From: Deltaproteobacteria bacterium
GTDB lineage: Bacteria > Desulfobacterota > Desulfobacteria > Desulfobacterales > Desulfatibacillaceae
Direction of reading: 5' to 3'
DNA: 64,000 nucleotides
NCBI GenBank assembly: GCA_016235345.1
Contig: JACRLG010000035.1
Location: forward strand, 1-64,000
Below are positions 38,599 through 52,076 of the stretch, piece after piece. How positions within the stretch are numbered: position 1 is the stretch's first letter; each line of letters starts with the position of its first letter. A program made the translations under genes and the position numbers. The notes under the pieces are model-generated. The model was not told where the DNA came from and did no database searches. It saw only the letters and a program-made list of their open reading frames with translations.

Positions 38599-40029
38599 CT
38601 ATTCCTCGCCGCCCTCCTCCATCTCATCTTCCATGCCTTCGTCTTCCTCATCCTTGGGTTTCAGATGATCGGGAACGATGACCATAGAGAGAAGAAGGGG
38701 TTTCAGGAAACTCCAGCGGATGCCCATGTGGTAGATTTCCTCGTTGTCCCTTATGGCGTCCCAGCAGTTGTGACAGGGGGAGATGACCAGTTTCGCGCCG
38801 GTGGCCATTATCTGGTCCCGCTTGACCTTGAGGCCTATGTTGCGCTGTTCCCTGTAGCGGCCTATGCCGTTCATGCCACCTCCACCGCCGCAGCAGAAGT
38901 TGTGCTCCCGGTTGGGCTCCATTTCCCGAAAGTCTTCCGCAATGTAGCTCATTATCTCGCGGGCAGTGTCCGCCATGCCGCAATTGCGAATATAGTTGCA
39001 GGAATCCTGGTAGGTGACCGGCTCCTTGATTTTCTTGGCCGGATCGATTTTGAGCTTTCCCGTGCGCAGGGCCTCGGCCACCCACTCGACATAGTGGAGA
39101 GTTTCCACCGGGGTCTGGCCGGTCTTGATACCTGCCCAGTAGGGGCCTTCCACAACGGTGGCCCTGTAGGCGTGGCCGCACTCGGTGACCACCATGCGCT
39201 TGGGCTTCAAGCGCTCCATTGCCGCGTAAACGCCCTCCACCTGGAGCTTGCAGGCTTCCCAGTCGCCCGCGAACATGGCGAGGCTGGTTTCCTCCCAGCC
39301 TTCGGAAGGCACGGTCCAGTTTTCACCGGCTATATGAAAAAGGATGGCGGCTTCCGCGAGGTCTTCGGGATAATGCTTGGGCTCGCGGGCGTTCACCGTG
39401 TACATGATGTCCGCGTTTTCCTTGTCTATCGGAATTTCCAGGCCCGGCCATTCCTCCTCCTGCTCCTCGGCCATCCACGAGCAGGTGTCAACCCAGTCCT
39501 CGGTGGTAATGTCCATCTGGGCGCGGTAGATGCGGTGCATTCCGGCGCCTATCTTCATCTCCCAGGGCACGAATCCCTGGGAATGGCAGAGCCCGCGAAG
39601 GTAGCTGAACATGACCCCCATGTCGATGCCGAAGGGGCAGTACATGCCGCAACGGTTGCAGCAGGTGCATTTTCCCCAGGCCGTATCCATGCAATAGCGC
39701 ATGAATTCGTTGGAGACCCTGCCCTTTTTGCGGACAAGCTCGCCCAGGGTGGACTGAATTTTAAAGGATGGAACCTGCTGGGGGTCCTTGTTGTTGGCCA
39801 GGTAGAAAAAGCATGAATCGGCGCACATGCCGCAGTGGGCGCAGATTTCAAGCCAAGTCTTAAGGCGGCTCTTGAAGGTCTTGGAAAGCGTGTCGGCAAG
39901 TTTCGCCTGATCCACGTCGAGCTGGGCCATCTCCTCGTAATAAAGCTTGCCGCTCTTGTCGGCCAGCGTGGCCTGGAGGGCCTCCACGTCGTTGATGGGC
40001 CGCCTGTGGCACAGTGTTCCTTCGGGCAT
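38599..40029 (-). CDS. hmcF: HmcF: HdrD-like Fe-S subunit of the Hmc complex
   Basis: This 476-residue cytoplasmic protein has ferredoxin motifs [11 protein letters not shown] and [11 protein letters not shown] (about residues 60-135). C-terminal CCG-domain cysteines follow ([31 protein letters not shown]) as in HdrD, DsrK and TmcB. In the Hmc complex it is the cytoplasmic electron-accepting subunit, linking periplasmic cytochrome c3/hydrogenase electrons to cytoplasmic partners. ATG 40029 follows AAGGAG at 8 bases. The C-terminal tail is very acidic. It is separated from hmcE by repeat R copy 3. Confidence 0.88.
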
Positions 40030-40114
40030 GACAATCACTCCTTTGTGGAGAAGATTCCTTCCCCTCCCTGACGGGGTTCGTCACCCCGAAAAACCTGAAA
40101 GCTATTATTTGTCA

Positions 40115-40234
40115 GGCTGATGAAAAACGATGAAATGCTAAGGTTGGCAAGCCAAAAAGGAGGGAGCGTACGCTTTTGTACGTGACCAACTTTTTGGTGA
40201 TGCCTGACACAGCAGTTCGCGGTTTTCGACAGCC
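40115..40234 (-). repeat. Dispersed structured element R, copy 3 (inside the hmc operon)
   Basis: The element begins 1 bp after the hmcE stop codon. The outer arms GGCTG-N2-GAAAA and TTTTC-N2-CAGCC pair. Inner arms CCAAAAAG and CTTTTTGG pair. Conserved GCGAACTGCTGTGTC, the GTACG hairpin and GCATTTCATCG are all present. An additional TGTCAGGC/GCCTGACA pair is possible. Confidence 0.8.
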
Positions 40235-40235
40235 G

Positions 40236-40913
40236 TTACCAGGATAAGCCTTTTGACTTCATACCCCCCCGCTTGATCCCGTAATCCATGCCGATTTGCG
40301 CCCTGCTCATGAAGAAAAGCACGAAGTGGGACAGTTTGGTGAAGGGAATGGCCACAAGCATTATTTCGCCTGAAAGTATGTGGGCGATCAGCCAGGTGTC
40401 GTAGTCGCCCAGGTGATGGGTGGCCACAAATCCGGTGACGAAGGGCGCAACCGCGATGGCGAGAACCAGGTAGTCGTACCAGGTGGTGAGGATGCGAACC
40501 TCTGCGAGGCCTATGCGGCGCAGAACCAGAAAGCCTGCGGCCGTCATGACCGCAATGGTGAAGACGTCCGCCACGCCCTCCGGCAGGGCCGGAAGCGAGA
40601 AGCCCCAGCGCTCGGCCATAAGCACGTTGTGGCCAAGAAGGAATATCGGGGTTATCAGAAGCCCGGCGTGAAAGGTGAAAAACAAGAGGGTCATGAAGGG
40701 CTTCTGCCGCCAGCCGTGGGCCTTGAACGGAATGAGCCAGAAGACTATGGAGCGCACCGCCCCCCTTATGCCGTATTTCAAATGCGGCATGTAGGCCACG
40801 CGGTCCAGCTTCCAGTCCAGGCCCCTTATATAAAGGACGGCCCGCACTGCGCAGCCCACGGAAAAGACCAGAAAGCTAAGCCAAGCTAAAGGCCCTGTGA
40901 CAAAATCATACAT
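40236..40913 (-). CDS. hmcE: HmcE: cytochrome b-type membrane subunit
   Basis: This 225-residue integral membrane protein has about five to six transmembrane helices and conserved histidines in FHAGLLITP, GFVATHHLG and FTKLSHFVLFF that can ligate heme b. It resembles HmcE, TmcC and DsrM/NarI-type cytochromes b, which pass electrons across the membrane to the HdrD-like subunit. Length and gene position match HmcE of Desulfovibrio. Confidence 0.88.
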   Translation of the reverse strand: MYDFVTGPLAWLSFLVFSVGCAVRAVLYIRGLDWKLDRVAYMPHLKYGIRGAVRSIVFWLIPFKAHGWRQKPFMTLLFFTFHAGLLITPIFLLGHNVLMAERWGFSLPALPEGVADVFTIAVMTAAGFLVLRRIGLAEVRILTTWYDYLVLAIAVAPFVTGFVATHHLGDYDTWLIAHILSGEIMLVAIPFTKLSHFVLFFMSRAQIGMDYGIKRGGMKSKGLSW

Positions 40914-40997
40914 TGTGATTTTCTCCTAAACGGCTTTATGCTTGCCGTAAATCCCGTATCCCGAAGCATCCCGAAATCCGCCACGCATCAGGCGGTT

Positions 40998-41162
40998 TCA
41001 GTGTTTCTCATGCTCTTCCTGCGGCTCATACTCGTCTTCCTCGTCGCGCTCGGTAAGGAAGGCCCAGAACCCGACGTATCCGGCCAGGATGGTCACGACC
41101 AATATGTAGAGGACCCCTTTGGTGTGGAGCATGAATTCATGCAGGGTAACGTATTCGTCCAT
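40998..41162 (-). CDS. hmcD: HmcD: small single-span membrane protein
   Basis: This 54-residue protein starts MDEYVTLHEFMLH, has one transmembrane helix (GVLYILVVTILAGYVGFWAF) and ends in a strongly acidic tail (ERDEEDEYEPQEEHEKH). GGGAGCAAAAATC precedes the ATG on the minus strand. Position and size match HmcD, the small membrane subunit between HmcC and HmcE. It is too short for many gene callers. Confidence 0.85.
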   Translation of the reverse strand: MDEYVTLHEFMLHTKGVLYILVVTILAGYVGFWAFLTERDEEDEYEPQEEHEKH

Positions 41163-41177
41163 GATTTTTGCTCCCTA

Positions 41178-42347
41178 TCAATGCTCCGGGTAACCCGGAT
41201 GAGAGAAGAAAATTGGCATACGGGTCACTATGAACCGGAAAACCAGAATTCCCACCGTGACCACGAAAACCGAAATGACTATCTCCTGCCAGTTGGGTAT
41301 GTAGCGCTCAGCCCAGGGCAGATGATAGTTGAAGGCGATGAGGCAGATGTTCAGGCGGTTCAAAACCAGCCCGAAAACGGTCCAACCGGCTGTGAAACGG
41401 ATGAGCTTCAGGTTCTTTTCACGCACGCCGATTGCATACATAAATGAGGGAAGCGCCACGAAGCCCAGCATCTCCACCAGGAACCACGCGCCGTAGCCTG
41501 ATGCAAGATAATGCCAGTTATTGTCGGCGGCAACGCCTATGGTCTTGATGCAAAAGTACCCTGCAAGAACGAAACTGGCGGCCTTGCCAAAGCCAAGGGT
41601 CACGCCGTCTTTTTCCGCCTTGTGGGCGTGGTCGAATTTTTCCTCGAAATATTTCGCCGAAAGCGCGCTTTCGAAGATCACCATGGAAAGGCCCGCGATA
41701 ATGGCGGACACGAAAAAATAAATAGGGATGTAAGACGAGTACCACAGGGGATGGAGCTTGGAGGGCGCGATGAGGAAAAGCGCCCCAAGGCTCGACTGGT
41801 GCAGGGTGGAAAGCACCACGCCCAGGATGGTGAGGCCCATGGTGAGCTTCACCACTAGGCTCCTGGCCCGCCTGAGGCCGATCCACTCCATGGCCGCAGG
41901 CGAGAACTCGATGAGAAGAACCGTGAGGTAGGCAGCAACGCAAGCGCCCACCTCGAATAGAAGGGAGGTGGTGCCCTGGCTCATGATGAAGGGGTAAGGA
42001 AGACGCCAGGGGCGGCCCACGTCGTAGTGAAGGGCCAAAACCACCAGGGCGTAGCCCAGAAAGCCGGTGAGGATGGCGGGACGCACCGCGCTGTGATAGC
42101 GCTTCATGCCGAAGATGTAGACAGCCGCCGATGTGACGAATCCCCCCGCAGCAAGACAGACTCCGGCCAGAAGGTCGAAGCCGATCCAAAGCCCCCAGGG
42201 GTAATGGTCGTCGAGATTGGTTACGGCGCCAAGCCCGCTTGTGAAGCGACGAAAAGTCACGTAAAGGCCCAGGACGACGATTATCCCGGCCACCACGTTT
42301 CCCGGCGTCACCAGCGATTTTTTGGCCCCGATGGTTTGTTCGGCCAT
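41178..42347 (-). CDS. hmcC: HmcC: NrfD-like integral membrane subunit
   Basis: This 389-residue NrfD/PsrC-family protein has about ten transmembrane helices, beginning after TIGAKKSLVTPGN. Conserved features include YPWGLWIGFD, GRPWRLPYP and the PLWYSSYIPIYFFVSAIIAG segment. NrfD subunits exchange electrons between periplasmic Fe-S subunits and quinone or downstream subunits and may couple this to proton movement. It lies between hmcB and hmcD. Confidence 0.9.
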   Translation of the reverse strand: MAEQTIGAKKSLVTPGNVVAGIIVVLGLYVTFRRFTSGLGAVTNLDDHYPWGLWIGFDLLAGVCLAAGGFVTSAAVYIFGMKRYHSAVRPAILTGFLGYALVVLALHYDVGRPWRLPYPFIMSQGTTSLLFEVGACVAAYLTVLLIEFSPAAMEWIGLRRARSLVVKLTMGLTILGVVLSTLHQSSLGALFLIAPSKLHPLWYSSYIPIYFFVSAIIAGLSMVIFESALSAKYFEEKFDHAHKAEKDGVTLGFGKAASFVLAGYFCIKTIGVAADNNWHYLASGYGAWFLVEMLGFVALPSFMYAIGVREKNLKLIRFTAGWTVFGLVLNRLNICLIAFNYHLPWAERYIPNWQEIVISVFVVTVGILVFRFIVTRMPIFFSHPGYPEH

Positions 42348-42426
42348 GTGACAGCTCCTTGATCGGTAAAATTTGAACCGATTGATGTTCCAAAAAAAAT
42401 CAGGCCAGAAAAGATTTAAGGGCCGC

Positions 42427-43554
42427 TTATTCCTCCGCCGCGCCTTCGTCCGCCGCCCCTGCCGGGGCTTCCGCCGCCGCTTTTTCCGCAGCTTCCTTTT
42501 CGGCCTTTTCCTTGCGGGCCTTTTCTGCGTCGGCCAGGGCCTTTTTCACGGCGTTTTCCACGGCCTTGCCCTGATCGCGCTTGGCGTCCTCGGCGGCCTT
42601 CTTGAGCCTGGCCTCGGCCTTGGCGTTCACCTTTTCAACCGCTTGCGCCACCGCCTCCTTCTGCTCCTCCCGGGCAATCTTTTCCTTGCGCTTGGTAATG
42701 GCGTAGATGCCGGTAAGCAGAACCGGCCAGAGGCCGACCACTATTGGAACGGACCCAAGGGCTCCGGCGGTGAGGGCCGGGGCGGGTGTGATGCCCAGAT
42801 CCTCACGAAGTCCGAGTTCCTTGAAAGGCGCGGGAGACAGGTAGAGCCAGCTTGTGCCGCCCATCTCGTTCTCGCCGTAAATGTGGTCTTCGTACTTGTC
42901 GGGATGCTTGGCTATTCTTTCCCTTGCCGTTGCAAGAAGGTCCTCCCGCTTGCCGTAAACCAGCGCCCCCGCAGGGCAGGCCTCCACGCAGCCTGGAAGT
43001 TTTCCCTCCATTATGCGCGGATAACACATGGTGCATTTCACGACCTTGGGCGTAAAAGCCTTGTCGTATTCGTAGGTGGGCACCTCGAAGGGGCAGGCCA
43101 CCATACAGTAGCGGCAGCCCACGCAGACCTTCTCGTTGTAGATCACCGGGCCTTCCGGCGTTTTCGTGAAGGCCTTGACGAAGCAGGCCGAGGCGCAGGC
43201 TGGCTCCAGGCAGTGGTTGCACTGGCTCTTGCGGAAAACCGGATGCCCCGGGGCTCCTGCCTCGTCGTACCTGTTCACCACGGTGAAGGCGTCGTTGGTG
43301 GTGCGGCGCTTATCGTTTAAAACCGCAAGGTCCTTGAAAGGCTTTTCAGGCGACGGAAGTTCGTTCACCTTGTTACAGGCCGCCTCACAGTTTCTGCACC
43401 CCACGCATCTCACAGAGTCGTGCAGAACCGCAAAGCTGCCCTCGTGCCCCGCAAAATGCCGGTTGGAAGCGGCGTGCGCCGGAAGGGCCGACGCGGCGGC
43501 GGCAGTGCCCGCCGCCGTCATCCACCCCAGAAACTTCCTTCGGGAAATCGCCAT
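42427..43554 (-). CDS. hmcB: HmcB: periplasmic Fe-S subunit with Tat signal
   Basis: This 375-residue protein begins with a twin-arginine signal ([20 protein letters not shown]). Four [4Fe-4S] motifs follow ([51 protein letters not shown]). A C-terminal transmembrane helix ([18 protein letters not shown]) anchors it. Beyond the helix is an unusual tail of about 95 residues rich in Ala, Lys and Glu. It takes electrons from the HmcA cytochrome and passes them to the membrane subunits. ATG 43554 has GAGGTGA upstream; GTG 43563 is less likely. Confidence 0.9.
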
Positions 43555-43579
43555 TATGTTCACCTCGATCAGAAACGGA

Positions 43580-45175
43580 TTATTTTTTCACTTCACGATG
43601 ACAGTCGGTGCAACCCACGGCATCCTTCACGCCCATATCCTTGTGGCATCCAAGGCACTGGCCGTGATAGGCCGCCACGAGCCCGGGTTTTCCGTCCTTA
43701 TCCTCGCCGGGAATGTTCGCGTGGCAGCTCGAACACTTGGGAGGAGTCTTGGACTGCGGGCTCTGGTGGTGGCAGCCCTGGCAAAGGGAGCCTTCGCCCA
43801 CATGGAAGGCCGTTGAAAGGCGGCTCGCCTTCATGCCCTTTTCAAGCGCCCTCACCATTGCCCTGTGAGGCATTTCCGAGGGGCCGTACTGGGCGGACAT
43901 GGTCTTTATGGTCACCTTTTCCGGGACGTCTGCGTCAACGTAGGTTCCGGTGAAACGCTTTCTGGCCTCGGCCATTTTGCGGGCCGCAACGGCCCTTTCG
44001 GCGGGGGACGCGTAGGTGGCCGGGGCCTCCTTGTGGCAGGTTGCGCAGCCCGAATCCTTGCCCGGCGATTTGGGAAGACGCGCATGGCAGCCCACGCAGC
44101 TTTTGGCTTTCTGCCTGTCGTTGTGGCAGCCGATGCAGGTCTTTTTGGAGGCCGGATCATGCATGGCCGCTTCCAGGTTCACGAACTTGCCGTCCTTTGA
44201 GCCCGGAACGGTGTGGCACTTGACGCAGGCCGAAAGGTCCGCGTGATGGCAGGCCTTGCAGGACTCGTTGGCGGCCTCGTGCTCCTTGTGCAAAAAGGCC
44301 ACCGGGTCCATGCGGGCGCGGCTGGTGTCGCCTGGGGCCTGGGCCGCCGCAAGAAGGGCCGCGTCGGGCTGGCTCCTCGTATAACGCGGGGGATCGGCAG
44401 GCAGCTTCATGGCCTTCCGCTCCTTTTCGCCGTGGCAGCCCGCGCAGTTCACCGGGCCGGCCTTGACGCCGGATTTCGCCTTTTCCTGATGACAACGGAT
44501 GCAGGAAGCATGGGCGGCCTCGGAATAGGCCCTTACGTTGTCCCCGGAGTAAGCGCGTGTTTTGTCCACGCCCTTTCCGTCGTGGCAGTAAGCGCAGGAG
44601 CCTTCCTTGCCCTTGGCGTAGACGAGCTTATTGGCCTTGGCGTCGTAAACGTGGTGACAGAGCTCGCACTTGTTCTGCATTTTCTGGGTGTGGGCGAAAT
44701 GCAGGGGCCGCGTAAAATTCATGGAAAGCCGCGCGAGTGTGGCGGCTGGCCGGTCATCGTGGCATTTTCCGCAGGTCACCGGGCCGGATTTGGATCCCTT
44801 GCGGGCGGTCTCCTTATGGCAGGCGATGCACTTGTCGTGATAAACGCCCATCACCTGCTTTTTCCCCTTGTCCTCCAGACGGGCAAACTTGTTGGAAAGC
44901 CCCTTTACGCCCGGAATCTGAAGGTGACAGGCGGTGCAGTCCCTGCCCATTTTGGAAACGGCCGCCGTGTGCGCGTCGTGCAAAAAAACCGGGACCGGCC
45001 TTTTGAGGGCCCCGTAAGCCTTCATAACGTCTATCCTTACGACGTCGGGCCTCCTGTTCCCCAAAGAGCCGGATACGCCGGAAAAAACCGGCCCTGCCAG
45101 CCCGTAGACAACCGCCGCCACGGCGAAAGCCACCACGGCGCCTGTCAAGATGAGCCGTTTTCGTCCGTTTGCCAT
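43580..45175 (-). CDS. hmcA: HmcA: 16-heme high-molecular-weight cytochrome c
   Basis: This 531-residue exported cytochrome has exactly 16 CxxCH motifs, from DCTACH to CTDCH, the number known for HmcA. An N-terminal hydrophobic segment ([20 protein letters not shown]) acts as export signal or anchor. In the periplasm it takes electrons from hydrogenase or formate dehydrogenase via cytochrome c3 and passes them to HmcB-F. ATG 45175 follows AAGGAAC. Upstream in-frame ATGs, one within repeat M copy 3, would add a non-signal leader. First gene of the hmcABCDEF operon. Confidence 0.93.
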
Positions 45176-45222
45176 GTCTGTTCCTTTTCGCATTGATCTA
45201 TCCGTGCGACTCAGATTTTTGG

Positions 45223-45350
45223 TTATTAAGCGGAGCATGGTTCTTTTCCGTCTTTAAGAAATCCGGCAAAGGGAAGAAATACCCCAGTCTTCCTTCCCCG
45301 CCATTTTCGGAAAAACGAAAAATCGAAATAAATTGCACTCCCGTCAATAA
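45223..45350 (-). repeat. Dispersed repeat family M, copy 3
   Basis: The plus strand reads TTATTAAGCGGAGCATGG at one end and AATTGCACTCCCG at the other. In the minus sense it points at hmcA and ends about 50 bp before its start codon. Confidence 0.65.
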
Positions 45351-45410: not shown

Positions 45411-45860
45411 TCACACCATGGCCTTCAAGCTCTGCTGCTGTTTTTCCCGTTCGATATCCAAAAGGTCCTGCATGGTGGTTCCGTCGTAAACGCAAAAAAG
45501 GGACTCCCACACCTTTTCCCACATGGGCGAAAGAGCGCATTCGCCGCCAAAGGGGCAGTTGTCCCTGGAAACGCAGGCTATGCAGTCGTGGGCCTTGTCG
45601 CCTCGTTTTTCCATGAAGCGGATCACGTCGCCCACCGCCACGTCGTTGGGTTTCCTGGAAAGCTCGTACCCGCCCTGGTAGCCGCGTTTGGAGTCCACGA
45701 AGCCACTTTTCTTGAGCTGATTCAAGATGACTTCCAGAAAACGCAGGGGTATGGCCTGGGTGCGGGCTATGTCCGACACCTTGATGGGCCCCTTGCCGTG
45801 GTGCTTGGCAAGCTCGAAGATTGCGCGAAGGGCGTACTGTTTTTTCTGGGTGATGAGCAT
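45411..45860 (-). CDS. Rrf2-family transcriptional regulator
   Basis: This 149-residue protein has an N-terminal winged helix (ITQKKQYALRAIFELAKHH, KRGYQGGYELS). A cysteine-rich effector region (DCIACVSRDNCPFGGEC) is suited to an Fe-S cluster or thiol sensing. It lies directly upstream of hmcA in the same direction. The Rrf2 family was named from the regulator gene linked to the hmc operon in Desulfovibrio vulgaris, so control of hmc is the obvious hypothesis. It could also regulate the divergent hdr operon. Confidence 0.87.
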   Translation of the reverse strand: MLITQKKQYALRAIFELAKHHGKGPIKVSDIARTQAIPLRFLEVILNQLKKSGFVDSKRGYQGGYELSRKPNDVAVGDVIRFMEKRGDKAHDCIACVSRDNCPFGGECALSPMWEKVWESLFCVYDGTTMQDLLDIEREKQQQSLKAMV

Positions 45861-46256
45861 GCCCTGATTCCCGCGTTAAAACCGGCTCCTTGGGTTCAAA
45901 AGAGCAAAAAAACTTTTTTGAGCCTTTTGGGGCTTCAGACCGGCCCTGTCGAACAGGCGAACTCCAGCTTTCCGCATCGAAGTTTTCCGGGAAACCCTGC
46001 ATTTTCCCCTGCCGGTTCAAACCTGACCGATCTTGTCAGATATTTTCCCGACTCCATAGGTCAGGAAAAGGAACCTTGTCAATCTTTTTTTGCTTCGCAG
46101 GCCTTTTAAATTCATAGCCCCGTCGCTATGGGCCGGATCGGGACAATAAGCCGCCTTTCTTGACAATTATGGGCTTCCCATATAAGAATGATGCGAAATC
46201 CTGAGTATTTTGTTACCGGCGATTCCGGTGCCTTAAATCGGGGGGAAGCACGAATA
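45861..46256 (+). promoter_or_regulatory. Divergent control region (Rrf2/hmc versus hdr)
   Basis: About 395 bp between divergent units and no gene. TTGACA at 46160-46165 and TATAAG at 46181-46186 are separated by 15 bp and could be the hdr promoter with a short spacer. CCTGACC at 46022 and GGTCAGG at 46059 form a 7-bp inverted pair 30 bp apart that might be a regulator site. Both are tentative. Confidence 0.35.
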
Positions 46257-47990
46257 ATGAGCCTTTCTCTTGCGGTTTACATAAGCCTGGCCGTTTTCGC
46301 CCTGGCCCTTGCCGCCCGGTGCTCCGGCTGGTTCATCCGGGTGATCGGCCCGGAAAACGGCGCGTCCCCCTTCAAAGGCCGCTTCAAAGCCGCCCTGGCC
46401 GGAACTCTTGGAACCGTTTTTTCCTTAAAAATATTCGCGGTGATCGGGGTGTTTTTCCGGGACGCCCTTTTCCAGTGGCCCATCCTCAGGCAGAGCATCT
46501 ACCGCTTCATAATGCACATGTCCATTTTCGCGGGCTTCGTCTTTCTTCTCATTTTCCACGCCCTGGGAAAATTCGTAACCGCTCCTTTGTTCGATGAAAA
46601 TTTCGCCTACCTGAATCCCTTCCTGTTTTTACGGGACGCCGCCGGAATCCTTGTACTTTTGGGCCTTGGAATGGCCGTGGCCCGAAGGTTAGCCCGGCGG
46701 AAGATGAGGATTAAAACCAACCTCGGCGACGTTTACGCCATTTTCATCGTGGGCCTCATAATTCTAAGCGGATTCGCCCTCTGCTCCGTCAAGATGACCT
46801 CCCATGACGTATTTCTCTCCATGAGCCTCGATTACGCCGGGCTCGACCCCGAAGGCACCCCCGACGACTTGAACGCCCTGGAGGCATACTGGGCTGCAAA
46901 TTACGGCCTTGTTTCACCCGTTTTCAAGGCCCCCTTCGACCAGGACCTTCTGACAAGCGGCGAAGCCGTCAACGAATCCTGCGTTTCCTGCCACGTGAAA
47001 AACGGCAACGCCCCGGCGAGCTTCGCCCTGGCCAAAATCATGGCACCGGCGGCGGGCCTTTTCAACAGCGCCTCTTCCGTCAATATTCTGTACTGGGGCC
47101 ACGTCCTGGCCTGCCTTCTGGGGCTCGCCATTCTTCCCTTCACCAAGATGTTCCACGTGTTTTCCACCCCTTTGGCCCTGGTGCTGAAAAACACCGTTAC
47201 CCCGCTTTCCCGGCCCGAAAACCTTATGACCCGCCGGCTTGTGGCCCTGTCGGCCTGCACCCACTGCGGAACCTGCAGCTTAAGGTGCTCCGCCATGATG
47301 GCCCATCACGTGACCGGAAACCCCTTCATCCTGCCCTCGGAAAAGGTCGGAGCCCTGAAAAGGCTGGCCAGGGGAAAGAAACCCACGGCCAGCGAGCTTT
47401 GCGCGGTCAGCCAGGGGATAATGCTCTGCACCAACTGCGACCGCTGCACCGTGGTGTGCCCGTCGGGCCTGGAGCTCAGGGACATCTGGGTTTCGGCAAG
47501 GCAGGGGATTCTTCTGGCCGGGCCTCCCGAACCCCTCGTGTGGACGCCCTTTTCCTTCCTTCGGGGTCTCAACAGGGAAAAGCTTTCCCCCGCCGAATAT
47601 GAAGGCCCCGTCGAAACCGCCAGGAAGGCCCTGGAAGCCTCATTTTCCACCCTTGCGGACAAAAACGCGGAACTCGTTGTGATTTTAAACGCGGATACCG
47701 CCGACATCGACCCGACATTCAGGGGATGCTTCGGCTGCACCAACTGCACCAATGTCTGCCCGGTGGTGAAAAGCTTTGATGAGCCCGAAAAGTCCCTGGG
47801 ACTGGCTCCCCACCAGATAATGGCGGCGGTGGGCATGGGGGCCTCGGTTGCGGCGGCGGGGTGCCACATGGTGCGCGAGTGCCTCACCTGTTACCAGTGC
47901 CAGGAGCACTGCCCACAGAACGTTGCCGTCACCGACGTGATTTACAGGTTAAAGGAACAAGCGGCCAGGGCTTTTGCCTCAAAGCCGTAA
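46257..47990 (+). CDS. Cytochrome b / Fe-S (HdrE-HdrC-like) fusion protein
   Basis: This 577-residue protein has an N-terminal membrane part with about six helices (starting MSLSLAVYISLAVFALALAA) and histidines in FIMHMSIFAGF and WGHVLACLLG. A CVSCH heme c motif (Cys242) sits in a loop between helices. The C-terminal half carries CTHCGTCSLRC, CTNCDRCTVVC, CFGCTNCTNVC and CLTCYQCQEHC, that is two pairs of [4Fe-4S] sites as in HdrC-like subunits. It probably moves electrons between membrane or periplasm and the HdrAB proteins encoded next. GGGGGGAAGC precedes ATG 46257. Confidence 0.8.
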   Translation: MSLSLAVYISLAVFALALAARCSGWFIRVIGPENGASPFKGRFKAALAGTLGTVFSLKIFAVIGVFFRDALFQWPILRQSIYRFIMHMSIFAGFVFLLIFHALGKFVTAPLFDENFAYLNPFLFLRDAAGILVLLGLGMAVARRLARRKMRIKTNLGDVYAIFIVGLIILSGFALCSVKMTSHDVFLSMSLDYAGLDPEGTPDDLNALEAYWAANYGLVSPVFKAPFDQDLLTSGEAVNESCVSCHVKNGNAPASFALAKIMAPAAGLFNSASSVNILYWGHVLACLLGLAILPFTKMFHVFSTPLALVLKNTVTPLSRPENLMTRRLVALSACTHCGTCSLRCSAMMAHHVTGNPFILPSEKVGALKRLARGKKPTASELCAVSQGIMLCTNCDRCTVVCPSGLELRDIWVSARQGILLAGPPEPLVWTPFSFLRGLNREKLSPAEYEGPVETARKALEASFSTLADKNAELVVILNADTADIDPTFRGCFGCTNCTNVCPVVKSFDEPEKSLGLAPHQIMAAVGMGASVAAAGCHMVRECLTCYQCQEHCPQNVAVTDVIYRLKEQAARAFASKP

Positions 47991-48015
47991 GAACTGTTTT
48001 TAGGTGGGAGCGCAC

Positions 48016-48942
48016 ATGGCTTACGCACTGTTTTGGGGATGCAACATCCCGGCAAGGCTTCCGGGATATGAAAAAGAAGCCCGCGCCGTGCTTTCCGCCC
48101 TTGGGGTTCTATATTCGGAAAGCCGCCGCTTCGCCTGCTGCGGCTACCCCGTGCGCCCGGCGGACCGGCTGGCTTGGCTGGTTTCGGCGGCCTCCAACAT
48201 GGCCGTGGCCGAAAAGGCGGGCCGCGACTTGCTGGTCCTGTGCCAGTGCTGTTACGGCTCCTTCAAAAACGCGGCGGCGGCCCTTGCCGCCGATCCCGGT
48301 CTTGCCGCAAGGGTCAACGAAATTCTGGCCTCCCAGGGCCTCCGCTACACCGGCTCGTGCAGGATAGTCAACGTTTTCAGGATGCTTCATGATGAAATTG
48401 GAATCGACGCCATCAAGGAAAAGGTGACCCGGCCCCTGACCGGAATTGCGGCGGCCTCTCACACCGGCTGCCATTCCCTCAGGCCGAGCCGCGTCACCGA
48501 GTTCGACGATCCCCTCCACCCCAAAATTCTGGACAACCTGATCTCGGCCCTGGACGCCACGAGCCTCGACTATCCCAAAAAGCTCGAATGCTGCGGCGCT
48601 CCTTTAACGGGCAGCGACGACGCGCTTTCCGTGAAGATTATGGCAGATAAGCTAATAAGCGCGAAAAAGGCCGGGGCCGAAGTCCTGGTCACCGCCTGCC
48701 CCTGGTGCCAGATTCAGTTTGAGACCTTTGGGGGCCAATTGGAGGGAGACGCCCTGCCCCCCCTGCCCTATCTCCGGCTTTTGGGCCTTGCCATGGGTAT
48801 AGTCCAGGATGACACGGGGCTTTTTTCCGAAAGATCGCGCGAAGTTGCCGGGGCTTCGGACAAGGACGCGGGCCGGACCGGGGTTAAAGTCAAAAATAAG
48901 TCCGACACGGACATAATTGACGCGGGAGAAACAAATGTCTGA
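48016..48942 (+). CDS. hdrB: HdrB-like heterodisulfide reductase subunit
   Basis: This 308-residue protein has two CCG domains: residues about 40-75 ([17 protein letters not shown]) and about 190-245 ([19 protein letters not shown]). These bind the noncubane Fe-S clusters that reduce disulfides in HdrB. A polar tail of about 35 residues overlaps the hdrA start by 8 bp. With the upstream HdrC-like fusion and downstream HdrA it completes an HdrABC-like set. The physiological disulfide or partner in a sulfate reducer is not known. ATG 48016 follows GGTGGGAG. Confidence 0.88.
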
Positions 48943-51937
48943 CACGGTTGGAAGCGTGATGGTGGTGGGCGGCGGAATATCCGGGATGCAGGCCGCGCTT
49001 GATCTGGCCAACTCCGGTTATTTCGTCCACCTGGTGGAGCGCACGGCGGGCATAGGCGGCATGATGAGCCAGCTTGACAAGACCTTTCCCACCAACGACT
49101 GCGCCATGTGAATTCTCTCCCCAAAACTGGTCGAGGTCGGCCGGCACATAAATATCGAGCTTCTGACCCTTTCCGAGCTAACCGGCGTAACCGGGGAAGC
49201 CGGAAACTTCAGGGTTAAAATCACCAGGCACCCGCGCTACGTTGACGTGGACAAGTGCATAGCCTGCGGTGCGTGCACCGAAAAATGCCCCGCCAAGGTT
49301 GATAACGAGTACGAGGGCGGCCTTGTGAAGCGCAAGGCGGTGTACGTGAAGTATGCCCAGGCAGTGCCCCTGAAATACGCCATAGACGACCGGTATTGCC
49401 TGAAGCTCACCAAGGGCAAGTGCGGGCTGTGCGAAAAAAAATGCCCGGCGGGTGCCATCAATTACGCAGACACGAAAGAATTCCTCGAAATCTCAGTGGG
49501 CGCGATAATCATGGCCCAGGGAGGCGACACCTACAACCCTGCCTCCCACGACACCTACGGCTACTCGAATAATCCAAACATAGTCACAAGCCTCGAATTC
49601 GAGCGCATACTTTCGGCCTCCGGCCCCTACGGCGGGCATCTGGTGCGGCCCTCCGACCACAAAGAGCCGAAGAAGATCGCCTGGCTCCAGTGCGTGGGTT
49701 CGCGGGACGAGCACATCGGGCGCGGCTACTGCTCATCGGTGTGCTGCACCTACGCAGTAAAGGAGGCCATGCTGGCCAAGGAGCACGCCAAAGGCCTGGA
49801 CGCCGCCATCTTCTACATGGACATGCGCACCTTCGGAAAGGACTTCGAGCGCTTCTACAACCGGGCAAGGGACGAGGCGGGAGTAAGATTCATCAAGGCC
49901 CGCGTCACCGGAATCGAGTCAGACCCGGAAACCGGCCTGCAGAAAATCGCCTGGATGAACGAGGACGGGCAGCTCGCCACGGAGGGCTTCGACATCGTGG
50001 TGCTTTCGGTGGGCTTGGGCTCCACCGAAGAGGGCCGGGAGCTGGCCCGAAGGCTCGGAGTGGGCCTCGACCGCTACGGATTCATACCCACCGGCAGCTT
50101 CACCCCGGTTGACACTGAGCGTCCAGGAATCTTCGTCTGCGGGGCCTCGGCGGGCCCCAAGGACATTCCTTCCTCGGTGATCGATTCCTCAGCGGCAGCG
50201 GCCCAGGCCGGGGCCCTTCTGGCCGAACACCGGAACGAGCTCACGCGCGCCAGGGAAATCCCCTCCGAAAGGGACATACGCGGCGAAACCACAAGGATCG
50301 GAGTTTTCCTCTGCCGCTGCGGAACCAACATAGCGGGGGTGGTGGACATCCCGAAACTTCTGGAACGGACAAAAACCCTGCCCGGCGTGGCCTTTGCGGC
50401 GGAGAACCTCTTTTCCTGCTCCCAGGACACCCAGGACAAGATGGCGAAGCTGGTTGCGGAACACGGCTTGAACCGGGTGGTGGTGGCGGCCTGCACCCCC
50501 AAGACCCACGAGCCTCTGTTCCAGGAAACCCTCACCAACGCGGGCCTCAACAAGTACCTTTTCGAGATGGCCAACATAAGGAACCACTGCTCGTGGGTCC
50601 ACAAGGACGAGCCCGAAAAGGCAACGGAAAAGGCCTGGGACCTGGTGCGCATGGCGGTGGCCAAGGCCGCCCTTTTGGCCCCCCTCACAGAGCCGGTTCT
50701 TTCCATCGATCCCAAGGCCCTGGTGATCGGCGGCGGCGTGGCGGGCATGGAGGCGGCCCGGAATCTCTCGGCCCAGGGCTACAAGACCTTTCTGGTGGAG
50801 AAGGCCGACAGGCTTGGCGGTAACGCCAAAAAGCTCCATCGCACCTGGAAGGGCGAGGACGTCCAGGACTACCTTGCCCGGCTCATCGTAAAAATCAGCA
50901 ACGACCCTAAAATCGAGGTGCTTTTAAACGCCACGGTCACGGCGGTGGAAGGCTTCGTGGGCAATTTCAAAACCACGGTTAACGCGGCTGGCGAAAGCCG
51001 CATGCTTGAGCACGGGGTCACCATCTTCGCATCGGGCGCGACCGAGCTTGTCCCCCAAGGTTTCGGTTACGGCGAAAACCGGCGCGTCCTAACAGGGCTT
51101 TCGCTTTCGCAGAAGCTCACCAACGAGCCGGAATCGGCCAGGAACATAAAGCAGGCCGTCTTCATTCAGTGCGTGGGCTCCCGCATCCCGGAGCGGCCCT
51201 ATTGCTCCAAGGTCTGCTGCACCCAGAGCATCAGAAACGCGCTTTCGCTTCTCGAAGTCAACCCGGATATCAAAATCACCATACTTTTCAGGGATATGCG
51301 CCCATACGGCCTCCGGGAGGAGCTTTACCGCCAAGCCCGCGAAAAAGGCGTGCTGTTTTTGAGATACGACGCGGAAAAGCCGCCCGATGTCGATGCCGAC
51401 GGGGTTGTGAGATTCACGGACAGGGTCCTCAAGCGGCCTCTGAAAATAACTGCTGACATGGTGGTCCTGGCTACGGCGATGGTCCCGGAAAAGGACTCGC
51501 CCTTAGGCCCATTTTACAAGGTGTCCCAGAACGCGGACGGATTCTTTGCCGAGGCCCACGTGAAACTGAGGCCCGTGGATTTCGCAACCGACGGCGTTTT
51601 CGTGTGCGGCCTGGCCCACGCGCCCAAGAGCCTGGATGAATCCGTTAGCCAGGCCCAGGCGGCGGCGGCCAGGGCCGTGACCCTGCTGTCAACCCGCCAG
51701 ATGGCGGTGGCCGGAACCGTGGCCGCCGTAAACCCGTCCCACTGCTCGTCCTGCGGGGTCTGCGTCTCGATATGCCCCTACGGCGCGCCCCGCTTTGACC
51801 CAAAAACCGGCAAGGCCTTCATCGAGGCCACCCTTTGCAAGGGCTGCGGCCTGTGCACGGCATCCTGCCGTTCGGGGGCCATATCCCTCAAGGGCTTTGA
51901 TGCGCCCCAAGTATTCGCACAAATCGAAGCCCTGTAA
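48935..51937 (+). CDS. hdrA: Double-module HdrA with selenocysteine (in-frame TGA)
   Basis: The reading frame runs from ATG 48935 through an in-frame TGA at 49109-49111 to 51937, giving 1000 residues with Sec59. Around it the sequence reads TNDCAM[15 protein letters not shown]; other HdrA proteins have Cys there (DCxMCILxPK). Module 1 (1-450) has an FAD Rossmann motif ([13 protein letters not shown]), the Sec site and ferredoxin motifs at about 108 and 163. Module 2 (450-1000) is a full HdrA with [18 protein letters not shown], a second [10 protein letters not shown] motif and C-terminal [11 protein letters not shown] and [11 protein letters not shown]. HdrA bifurcates or confurcates electrons at FAD. 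A standard caller would split this gene. Confidence 0.88.
49127..49144 (+). promoter_or_regulatory. Candidate bacterial SECIS hairpin
   Basis: CTGGTC pairs with GGCCGG (6 bp including two G-U pairs) around the loop GAGGTC. The apical loop starts 21 nt after the TGA and its first base is G, as bacterial SECIS rules require. This supports Sec insertion rather than a true stop. Confidence 0.65.
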
Positions 51938-51949
51938 TAAGGCCGTCCA

Positions 51950-52076
51950 AAAAGGCCGTCCACAAGCGCGAACTGCTGTGTCAGACTTCGCGGCGCGGGG
52001 CGGAATGTACGAAAAGTACTATTCCTTCCCGCGCCGCTTGTCTTCCTTGCATTTCATCGCTTGTGATCGGCCTTTT
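51950..52076 (+). repeat. Dispersed structured element R, copy 4
   Basis: Located 12 bp after the hdrA stop, in the plus sense: arm AAAAGGCCGTCCACAAGCG, conserved GCGAACTGCTGTGTC, inner arm GCGGCGCGGG, hairpin TGTACG/AGTACT, inner arm CCCGCGCCGC, conserved CTTGCATTTCATCG, arm CGCTTGTGATCGGCCTTTT. Both arm pairs are complementary. Confidence 0.8.

Follow-up and report, generated by a model that had tools for sequence, protein, structure and literature searches.

A predicted selenocysteine-containing double HdrA encoded beside a cytochrome b–HdrC fusion in a member of the Desulfobacterota

INTRODUCTION

HdrA sets the point at which electrons are split in methanogens, acetogens and sulfate reducers. 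The gene considered here is an hdrA with an in-frame TGA codon, located on the forward strand of a 64 000-nucleotide stretch of DNA (the window; positions 1–64 000 of contig JACRLG010000035.1, assembly GCA_016235345.1) from a Deltaproteobacteria bacterium of the Desulfatibacillaceae. Tandem or fused HdrA proteins with a complementary loss of the N-terminal domain and of Cys197 have been described (PMC9012536) and such fusions were named type II HdrA (PMC12054007), so that double HdrA is found in papers of 2022 and 2025 (PMC9012536, PMC12054007). The sources of type II were given as class A6, which has neither the N-terminal domain nor the C-terminal ferredoxin, and class A12, which is like the type II C-terminal region (PMC12054007). 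Selenocysteine (Sec) in HdrA of Deltaproteobacteria and methanogens was reported along with hdrA fusions in Deltaproteobacteria (PMC1794560, PMC2702500, PMC2933860), in agreement with an earlier, sequence-only reading of this DNA, and neighbouring Sec hdrA and frhD genes have been published (PMC1794560, PMC11227280). The HdrA of Desulfococcus multivorans, with its UGA, was entered under two locus tags, Dmul_C02770/80 (PMC5109826), and the same annotation problem was noted for HdrA in archaea (PMC12054007). Sec in HdrA, double HdrA and the splitting of such genes by annotation are thus already published.

The protein of the window resembles the archaeal type II HdrA A3/A4 (PMC12054007) and the fused HdrA3/4 (PMC9012536) in having two fused thioredoxin reductase (TrxR) modules, with the N-terminal domain and the Cys197 position split between them. 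In contrast to archaeal type II, it has a predicted Sec for Cys197, a second module without E356/K409 and a cytochrome b/c-HdrC in the operon. The module order given for anaerobic methanotrophic archaea (ANME) in PMC9012536 is the reverse of that in our 85-row alignment, where the Cys/Sec module comes first in every row, also in those with archaeal titles. Sec in HdrA and hdrA tandem and fusion events are shared with the deltaproteobacterial and methanogen Sec-HdrA, but the published operons of these are hdrA-frhD-frhG-frhA or mvhD-linked, whereas the window encodes cytochrome b/c-HdrC, HdrB and HdrA. The HdrA of the Moorella MetFV-HdrABC-MvhD complex (PMC9012536, PMC9430772) differs by its mass of 162.8 kDa, a GltD-type insert and a MetVF partner (PMC9430772). 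In HotSeep-1, a sulfate reducer, HdrA is joined with a haem-c-binding redox protein (PMC10553843) proposed to link cytochromes c to DsrC or ferredoxin by electron transfer (PMC10553843); there, haem c and CCG are in one protein, whereas in the window HdrB is separate and the haem-c motif lies in the cytochrome b–HdrC protein. As in Qmo and Hmc of sulfate reducers, redox modules are tied to a membrane cytochrome. Unlike in these, HdrB is encoded on its own and has two CCG motifs, and the cytochrome scored 32.5 bits for QmoC (cut-off 300) and 19 bits for HmcE (cut-off 275), so that no QmoC-family membrane subunit above the cut-off is present. In the available portions of the papers searched, we found no set of cytochrome b/c-HdrC, HdrB and double HdrA, no description of Sec in the place of Cys197 and none of HdrA and MvhD switching jointly. 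Three features are possibly new: the link of the operon to a cytochrome, the loss of the second bifurcation site, and the concerted change between Sec and Cys in HdrA and MvhD.

RESULTS AND DISCUSSION

The TGA codon in hdrA

The gene and the elements around the TGA codon are the following.

48935–51937, +: hdrA, predicted Sec-containing double (type II) HdrA of 1000 amino acids plus stop (translation with TGA as U, HdrA matches, 85-row alignment, AF2 model)
49109–49111, +: UGA codon (predicted selenocysteine), residue 59, aligned with Cys197 of methanogen HdrA 5odc_A
49127–49144, +: putative hairpin of the bacterial selenocysteine insertion sequence (bSECIS) type, stem 49127–49133/49138–49144, loop AGGU at 49134–49137 (fold and comparison)

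The sequence-only reading had stated that the HdrA frame is broken by a single TGA at 49109. The TGA at residue 59 was indeed the sole one in frame, and the frame was otherwise open for 1000 residues up to the stop at 51935–51937. With the standard code, the list of open reading frames (ORFs) contained in this frame just a GTG-started ORF of 896 amino acids (49247–51937). Gene finders that take UGA as a stop cut such genes, so the count of type II HdrA in sulfate reducers is probably too low.

The codon at the TGA column was compared in 110 loci, of which 30 came from genomes of the class (including the window's own copy, L021) and 80 from named genome records. The named loci were the best 80 of the matches listed in a scan with codon-degenerate patterns for the peptides LDKTFPTN and KLVEVGRH (both lie beside the hairpin or overlap it), and because loci were chosen as best matches the counts are no census. 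One locus, L081, duplicates L042, leaving 109 distinct loci. The codon was TGA in 54, TGT in 36 and TGC in 20 of the 110 loci, with no other codon found, so the TGA does stand where the family has Cys, as had been claimed and as is expected of a bacterial selenoprotein. Because the column holds these three codons alone, the pattern is far beyond chance. The TGA was shared by 53 distinct loci including the window, from isolates (e.g. L115, L118 and L126) as well as metagenome-assembled genomes (MAGs). In the 106 other full-length frames (a set that excludes the window, the repeat L081, L106 with its partial best stretch and L154 with an ambiguous base), there was at most one TGA each and neither TAA nor TAG. 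The residues round the TGA and the FAD-binding N terminus were conserved. When the genomes of the class were searched, 287 of 291 matched HdrA at E 1e-100 or better, and 115 of the 150 rows listed among these matches contained one TGA and 35 none.

The sequence-only reading had made its case depend on selA, selB, selC and selD, and a lack of Sec machinery does not speak against it, as all four were found in the host genome. SelA (587.5 bits), SelB (360.6 bits) and SelD (342.8 bits) scored above their cut-offs, selD carried its own in-frame TGA, and tRNA-Sec scored 74.9 bits against a gathering score of 47, with the anticodon TCA assigned by ARAGORN.

The hairpin downstream of the UGA

A bSECIS element is a hairpin directly 3′ of the UGA with a G among the first nucleotides of its apical loop. 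The segment 49127–49144 fits this description: it was folded into a 7-bp stem at −10.2 kcal/mol, with the loop AGGU 22 nt past the UGA. The plausible bSECIS hairpin claimed here by the sequence-only reading therefore exists, but as a single sequence its fold is not significant (z −1.15; 25 of 200 shuffles fold equally well). The hairpin alone was rejected as proof of a bSECIS and, because the window's fold is not exceptional by itself, the case rests on comparison.

Among distinct loci encoding the same peptide, LVEVGR, the 18-mer CTGGTCGAGGTCGGCCGG was present exactly in 42 of 45 TGA genes and in none of 24 Cys genes, even though all six codons have synonyms; the codons GTC GAG GTC GGC were invariant in all 45 of these TGA genes. 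A tree of 107 rows was built with FastTree, a quick method. Across this tree, the 12-nt core made up of these four codons was found in 44/52 Sec rows and 1/55 Cys rows (L039), and all seven stem pairs were possible in 48/52 Sec rows and 2/55 Cys rows. The loop register of the Sec rows read AGGT in 44/52 and AGTG in 8/52. For independent tree pairs of VEVG rows, the core went with Sec in six of seven, with one tie and no pair in the opposite direction (p 0.031), and for all rows in 8–9 of 11, with 2–3 ties and again none opposite (p 0.004–0.008). A double stem change, C-G to U-A, was seen in one clear case (L042/L081); covariation is weak proof of the stem here because the Sec genes hardly vary. 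These comparisons indicate a constraint at the RNA level on the TGA genes. From the codons at the site, the Sec machinery and the hairpin core, which support the selenocysteine reading made earlier, we consider it highly probable that the TGA at 49109–49111 is read as Sec.

Two complementary modules in one chain

The following parts were assigned within the protein.

48935–50230, +: module 1, TrxR-like FAD domain with predicted Sec59, E223, K276 and the Fe-S cysteines C253, C266, C270 and C271
49235–49462, +: inserted ferredoxin of module 1, with C108, C111, C114, C118 and C155, C163, C166, C170 (85-row alignment)
50285–50710, +: N-terminal HdrA domain of module 2, with C460, C462, C495 and C520 (residues 451–623 on 5odc_A 2–174)
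50711–51709, +: TrxR-like domain of module 2, with C746, C757, C761 and C762, and S725/R767 at the E356/K409 positions
51722–51889, +: C-terminal two-cluster ferredoxin domain (Fer4-type matches at residues 932–983)

The protein is almost certainly a type II (double) HdrA. It has two TrxR-type modules in a single chain, with the N-terminal Fe-S domain and the Cys197 position on separate modules. An AlphaFold2 (AF2) model was obtained from 85 rows, namely the window and 84 of the 106 full-length relatives, with a predicted local distance difference test (pLDDT) score of 91.9 and a predicted template modelling (pTM) score of 0.92; a first model from 14 similar sequences was dropped as poor (pLDDT 67.1, with residues 43–62 under 50). 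When the predicted model was compared with known structures, residues 1–432 were superimposed on 7bke_A 143–584 (Z 34.9, root mean square deviation 1.2, 426 residues aligned) and residues 451–1000 on 5odc_A 2–649 (Z 33.2, root mean square deviation 2.7, 547 aligned). The matches of module 2 also included thioredoxin reductases, as expected for a TrxR domain.

Module 1 consists of the TrxR domain, the inserted ferredoxin and residue 59, and has no N-terminal HdrA domain. Module 2 consists of the N-terminal domain, TrxR and the C-terminal ferredoxin, and has neither an equivalent of Cys197 nor the inserted ferredoxin. Residue 59 corresponds to position 197 of 5odc_A in an ungapped stretch of the alignment, and in module 2 there was no Cys at residues 622–660 in the window, nor in 82/85 rows. 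In the 85 rows, the cluster cysteines were invariant, among them all eight of the inserted ferredoxin, the four of the N-terminal domain (C460, C462, C495, C520) and C937, C940, C943, C947, C968, C974 and C978 of the C-terminal ferredoxin; the one exception, C971, was present in at least 90%. By motif count, the chain would contain seven [4Fe-4S] sites and two FAD sites. The sequence-only reading had described two HdrA modules fused in one chain, the first with the Sec site and ferredoxin motifs and without the N-terminal HdrA domain, and sequence and structure comparison agree with this. It had taken module 2 for a full HdrA without the Cys motif; the Cys motif is absent, but module 2 is no full HdrA because the inserted ferredoxin domain is missing. 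The modules are complementary parts rather than one partial and one full HdrA, and the chain is a pseudo-dimer in which most HdrA parts occur once.

K409 and E356 are held to mark bifurcation (PMC12054007). Their equivalents in module 1, K276 and E223, were present in 85/85 rows, and in module 2 both residues were kept in 24/85 rows, the window having R767 and S725. All 11 archaeal-titled rows, grouped by record title, kept the module 2 pair. The pair in both modules was reported for 75% of archaeal type II sequences and is not strictly defining (PMC12054007); the window has it in module 1, with S/R in module 2. Judged by these residues, there would be one bifurcating flavin, in module 1, and module 2 may have taken on an accessory role, contributing the N-terminal cluster as well as the C-terminal ferredoxin. 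By the same residues, the fusion suggests the passage from a symmetric dimer to a single asymmetric chain with one bifurcating flavin.

The operon and the host genome

Two genes precede hdrA on the same strand.

48004–48942, +: hdrB, with two complete cysteine-rich CCG motifs (PF02754 in two stretches; TIGR03288)
46188–47990, +: NarI-type cytochrome b with two dicluster Fe-S (HdrC-like) domains and a CxxCH c-haem motif

The cytochrome b–HdrC gene, hdrB and hdrA form a compact set in this order, and hdrA, from its ATG onwards, shares 8 bases with the end of hdrB. Upstream and divergent are an Rrf2-type regulator and then hmcA, hmcB, hmcC, hmcE and hmcF. Domain matches agreed with the cytochrome b/HdrC fusion noted earlier beside hdrA: PF02665 (nitrate reductase gamma) scored 38.3 bits against a cut-off of 22.9, two dicluster Fe-S domains were found, and all NCBIfam matches were far below their cut-offs. 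The CxxCH motif at residue 265 was present in 30/30 fetched homologues, the protein itself included. HdrB scored 206 bits for TIGR03288, below the cut-off of 345, and its CCG motifs at residues 13 and 156 were both complete. HdrA, HdrB with two CCG motifs and HdrC-like parts are thus encoded together, as in HdrABC, and the only HdrC-like domain of the operon comes from the cytochrome b–HdrC protein.

In the 107-row tree, over which Sec and Cys changed 12 times, the window belonged to a clade of 36 rows with support 100. Within the clade, hdrB was directly upstream in 32 of the 34 loci with at least 500 bp of upstream sequence (the exceptions were L029 and L039), and the end of the cytochrome b–HdrC gene was visible upstream in 29 of 36, with several contigs or stretches ending early. 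The other 74 loci, including L081 as the repeat of clade member L042, had no cytochrome b–HdrC in their upstream sequences, whose lengths vary widely. Of the listed rows of the class, 63 had at least 61% identity, and in 49 of these a cytochrome b–HdrC match was found 0.9–1.3 kb upstream on the same strand (35 with TGA and 14 without; six match the Fe-S half only, residues 301–596). Among the 87 listed rows below 61% identity, four had such a match upstream. The arrangement of cytochrome b/c-HdrC, hdrB and hdrA is therefore common among close relatives. The combination had been called noteworthy; it is less unusual than it had seemed, with TGA in 115/150 listed rows and double HdrA already published. 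The host genome (4.01 Mb, 36 contigs, 97% complete) encodes DsrA (614.6 bits) and a DsrC with two cysteines near the C terminus, which makes it very probable that the host reduces sulfate.

Joint Sec/Cys switching of HdrA and MvhD

An MvhD stretch of at least 100 amino acids was found near hdrA (up to 1.5 kb downstream or up to 2.5 kb upstream) in 79/110 loci, 17 of them in the clade of the window. In these 79 loci, the column of the MvhD motif G-[C/U]-H-x-G held Cys in 39 and a Sec codon in 40, and nothing else. The states of HdrA and MvhD agreed in 73/79 loci (Sec/Sec 35, Cys/Cys 38) and in 17/17 within the window's clade, and the discordant loci were five with Cys HdrA and Sec MvhD and one with the reverse. 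A cruder count of any TGA in the MvhD stretch, made before the motif column was fixed, gave 71/79. On the HdrA tree, there were 11 HdrA changes and 12 MvhD changes, and 14 joint changes suffice; of 11 independent pairs, 8–9 changed in the same way and 0–1 in opposite ways, with 1–3 ties (p 0.004–0.039).

Loss of Sec decoding as a general cause of the Cys versions was unsupported. Among 18 tested genomes with a TGA-free copy, in which selA alone was scored, selA was found in 15; the misses were G255 and G278 (77% complete each) and G208 (88%). G042 and G208 also hold a TGA copy, and in three of the 18 (G242, G161 and G208) the codon of the TGA-free copy was not read. Since selA persists in most of the TGA-free genomes tested, the switch looks gene-specific within the group, and part of the joint switching could be loss of Sec decoding, e.g. 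in archaea and Chloroflexi. A tentative proposal is that Sec59 and the MvhD Sec, possibly a [2Fe-2S] ligand, tune one electron wire and evolve as a unit, which the window's clade would couple to a membrane cytochrome b/c, giving a quinone- or cytochrome-linked bifurcating HdrABC. Orthologous operons with either Se or S at a single predicted cluster ligand, most of them in genomes that retain SelA, would offer a direct test of selenium in flavin-based bifurcation.

In family f2, and also inside genus code g6, sister genomes carried either Sec or Cys, in HdrA and MvhD alike; selA was kept in all seven of the f2 set L024–L027, L029, L030 (Cys) and L040 (Sec), which form a natural Se/S comparison set. 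In the MvhD of L085, L138, L153 and L157, a Sec codon stood at a different cysteine position, the second one in CNWC, and the MvhD of L153 and L157 adjoined a Cys-HdrA. Nine MvhD-like places were found in the host genome of the window. Three of them (L161, L163 and L165; G000:C28, C2 and C13) contain an in-frame TGA, and further electron-transfer selenoproteins are therefore probably encoded elsewhere in the genome.

Proposed mechanism and alternatives

Cys197 of methanogen HdrA ligates the N-terminal Fe-S cluster of the partner HdrA in the dimer (PMC9012536). Electrons enter via the C-terminal ferredoxin and are split at FAD, after which one pair passes via the TrxR cluster to HdrBC and the other via the inserted ferredoxin to free ferredoxin (PMC9012536); in the heterodimers proposed there, the ferredoxin-bound pair passes through the N-terminal cluster (PMC9012536). 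In the protein of the window, SelB and tRNA-Sec would decode the UGA at residue 59, helped by the downstream hairpin. Sec59 probably ligates the N-terminal cluster of module 2, and would do so within one chain, where Cys197 does so between subunits in methanogen dimers. In the low-potential branch, electrons would pass from the FAD of module 1 to the Sec-ligated cluster of module 2, the inserted ferredoxin and free ferredoxin, with Sec59 as the joint. In the high-potential branch, they would pass from the TrxR cluster to HdrB, with DsrC as a plausible thiol/disulfide partner, and also, by way of the cytochrome b/c fused to HdrC, to menaquinone or a c-type cytochrome of the periplasm, perhaps the neighbouring HmcA. 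Computation supports the reading of UGA as Sec (by comparison), the domain layout, the lost second-flavin residues and the operon; we infer cluster ligation, electron route, direction and partners. As a whole, this explanation seems reasonably likely; a membrane-linked complex is somewhat favoured, and the full electron route, for which both bifurcation and confurcation are possible, is put forward with reserve.

Other readings of the UGA were weighed against Sec. That it is decoded as another amino acid, e.g. as Cys by a suppressor tRNA, would suit the roughly one half of loci that have Cys there; the Sec machinery and tRNA-Sec of the host genome, the exact hairpin core that tracks the TGA genes, and the in-frame TGA in selD and in three MvhD-like genes of the same genome make it very improbable. 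A true stop would imply a pseudogene, a sequencing error or a 58-residue peptide followed by the 896-residue protein from 49247, and that ORF does appear in the mechanical ORF list, but with the identical TGA in 53 distinct loci of isolates and MAGs, and with the conserved residues around it and in the FAD-binding N terminus, this is the least probable reading of all. The pseudogene, sequencing error and two-protein versions were rejected on the codon pattern of the 110 loci, the full-length frames and the constraint on the hairpin. With the codon taken as Sec, the residue might instead form with C56 a redox-active selenenylsulfide pair (CxxU) that performs thiol/disulfide chemistry beside the flavin and ligates no cluster. 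C56, like the position of residue 59, was invariant in 85/85 rows, so that a redox-active C-x-x-U pair also fits, and a 2026 review gives the HdrA motif as CxxU (PMC13188914). Against this pair stands the report that the aligned Cys197 is a ligand of the partner's N-terminal cluster (PMC9012536), and a ligand role would explain why the Cys/Sec lies on the module without its own N-terminal domain; we regard the pair as rather unlikely and prefer cluster ligation. For the complex as a whole, HdrA and HdrB could act with soluble partners such as MvhD, NADH or formate modules, the cytochrome being just co-transcribed. This would accord with the 14 of 63 close homologue rows that have no adjacent cytochrome b–HdrC match (some at a contig end), with the six more that match its Fe-S half only, and with the MvhD stretch that adjoins hdrA in 17 clade loci. 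Because the cytochrome b–HdrC protein holds the operon's only HdrC-like domain, and in 43 of the 63 rows the match immediately upstream covers the cytochrome part and leaves space for hdrB, such a soluble bifurcating complex appears unlikely.

Several observations besides the invariance of C56 and the unexceptional fold of the single hairpin weigh against the explanation preferred here. The NCBIfam HdrA/HdrA2 models NF040770, NF041778 and NF041891 scored below their curated cut-offs (976.8/1100, 750.8/1400 and 677.4/1300). The genome G208 (88% complete) has a TGA copy, and selA was not found in it. The Cys gene L039 retains the 12-nt hairpin core, and the eight Sec rows with AGTG in the loop register have the peptide LVECGR and a different sequence at the core. 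The hairpin register is less certain for these rows because RNAfold favours another hairpin in the two that were folded. Finally, mvhD was not found adjoining hdrA in the window.

Neighbouring elements

45411–45860, −: Rrf2-family regulator between the hmc and hdr operons (TIGR00738, 112 bits)

The hmc cluster at 38599–45238 (−) encodes HmcA, HmcB, HmcC, HmcE and HmcF, all of which exceed their NCBIfam cut-offs. With the Rrf2-type regulator at 45411–45860, the interval between the hmc and hdr operons is a possible shared control region. Right after hdrA, at 51953–52073 (+), lies a dispersed palindromic repeat of about 120 nt (copies L173–L190) with a fold z of −10.7. Of 292 first-look candidates, 40 places in the genome, counting that of the window, were scored at 80–100% identity, and no Rfam family attained its gathering score on the repeat. 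In 19 aligned copies, both-sided changes were found in 14 of 34 predicted pairs, and the repeat looks like a structured element of the repetitive extragenic palindromic (REP) or miniature inverted-repeat transposable element (MITE) kind.

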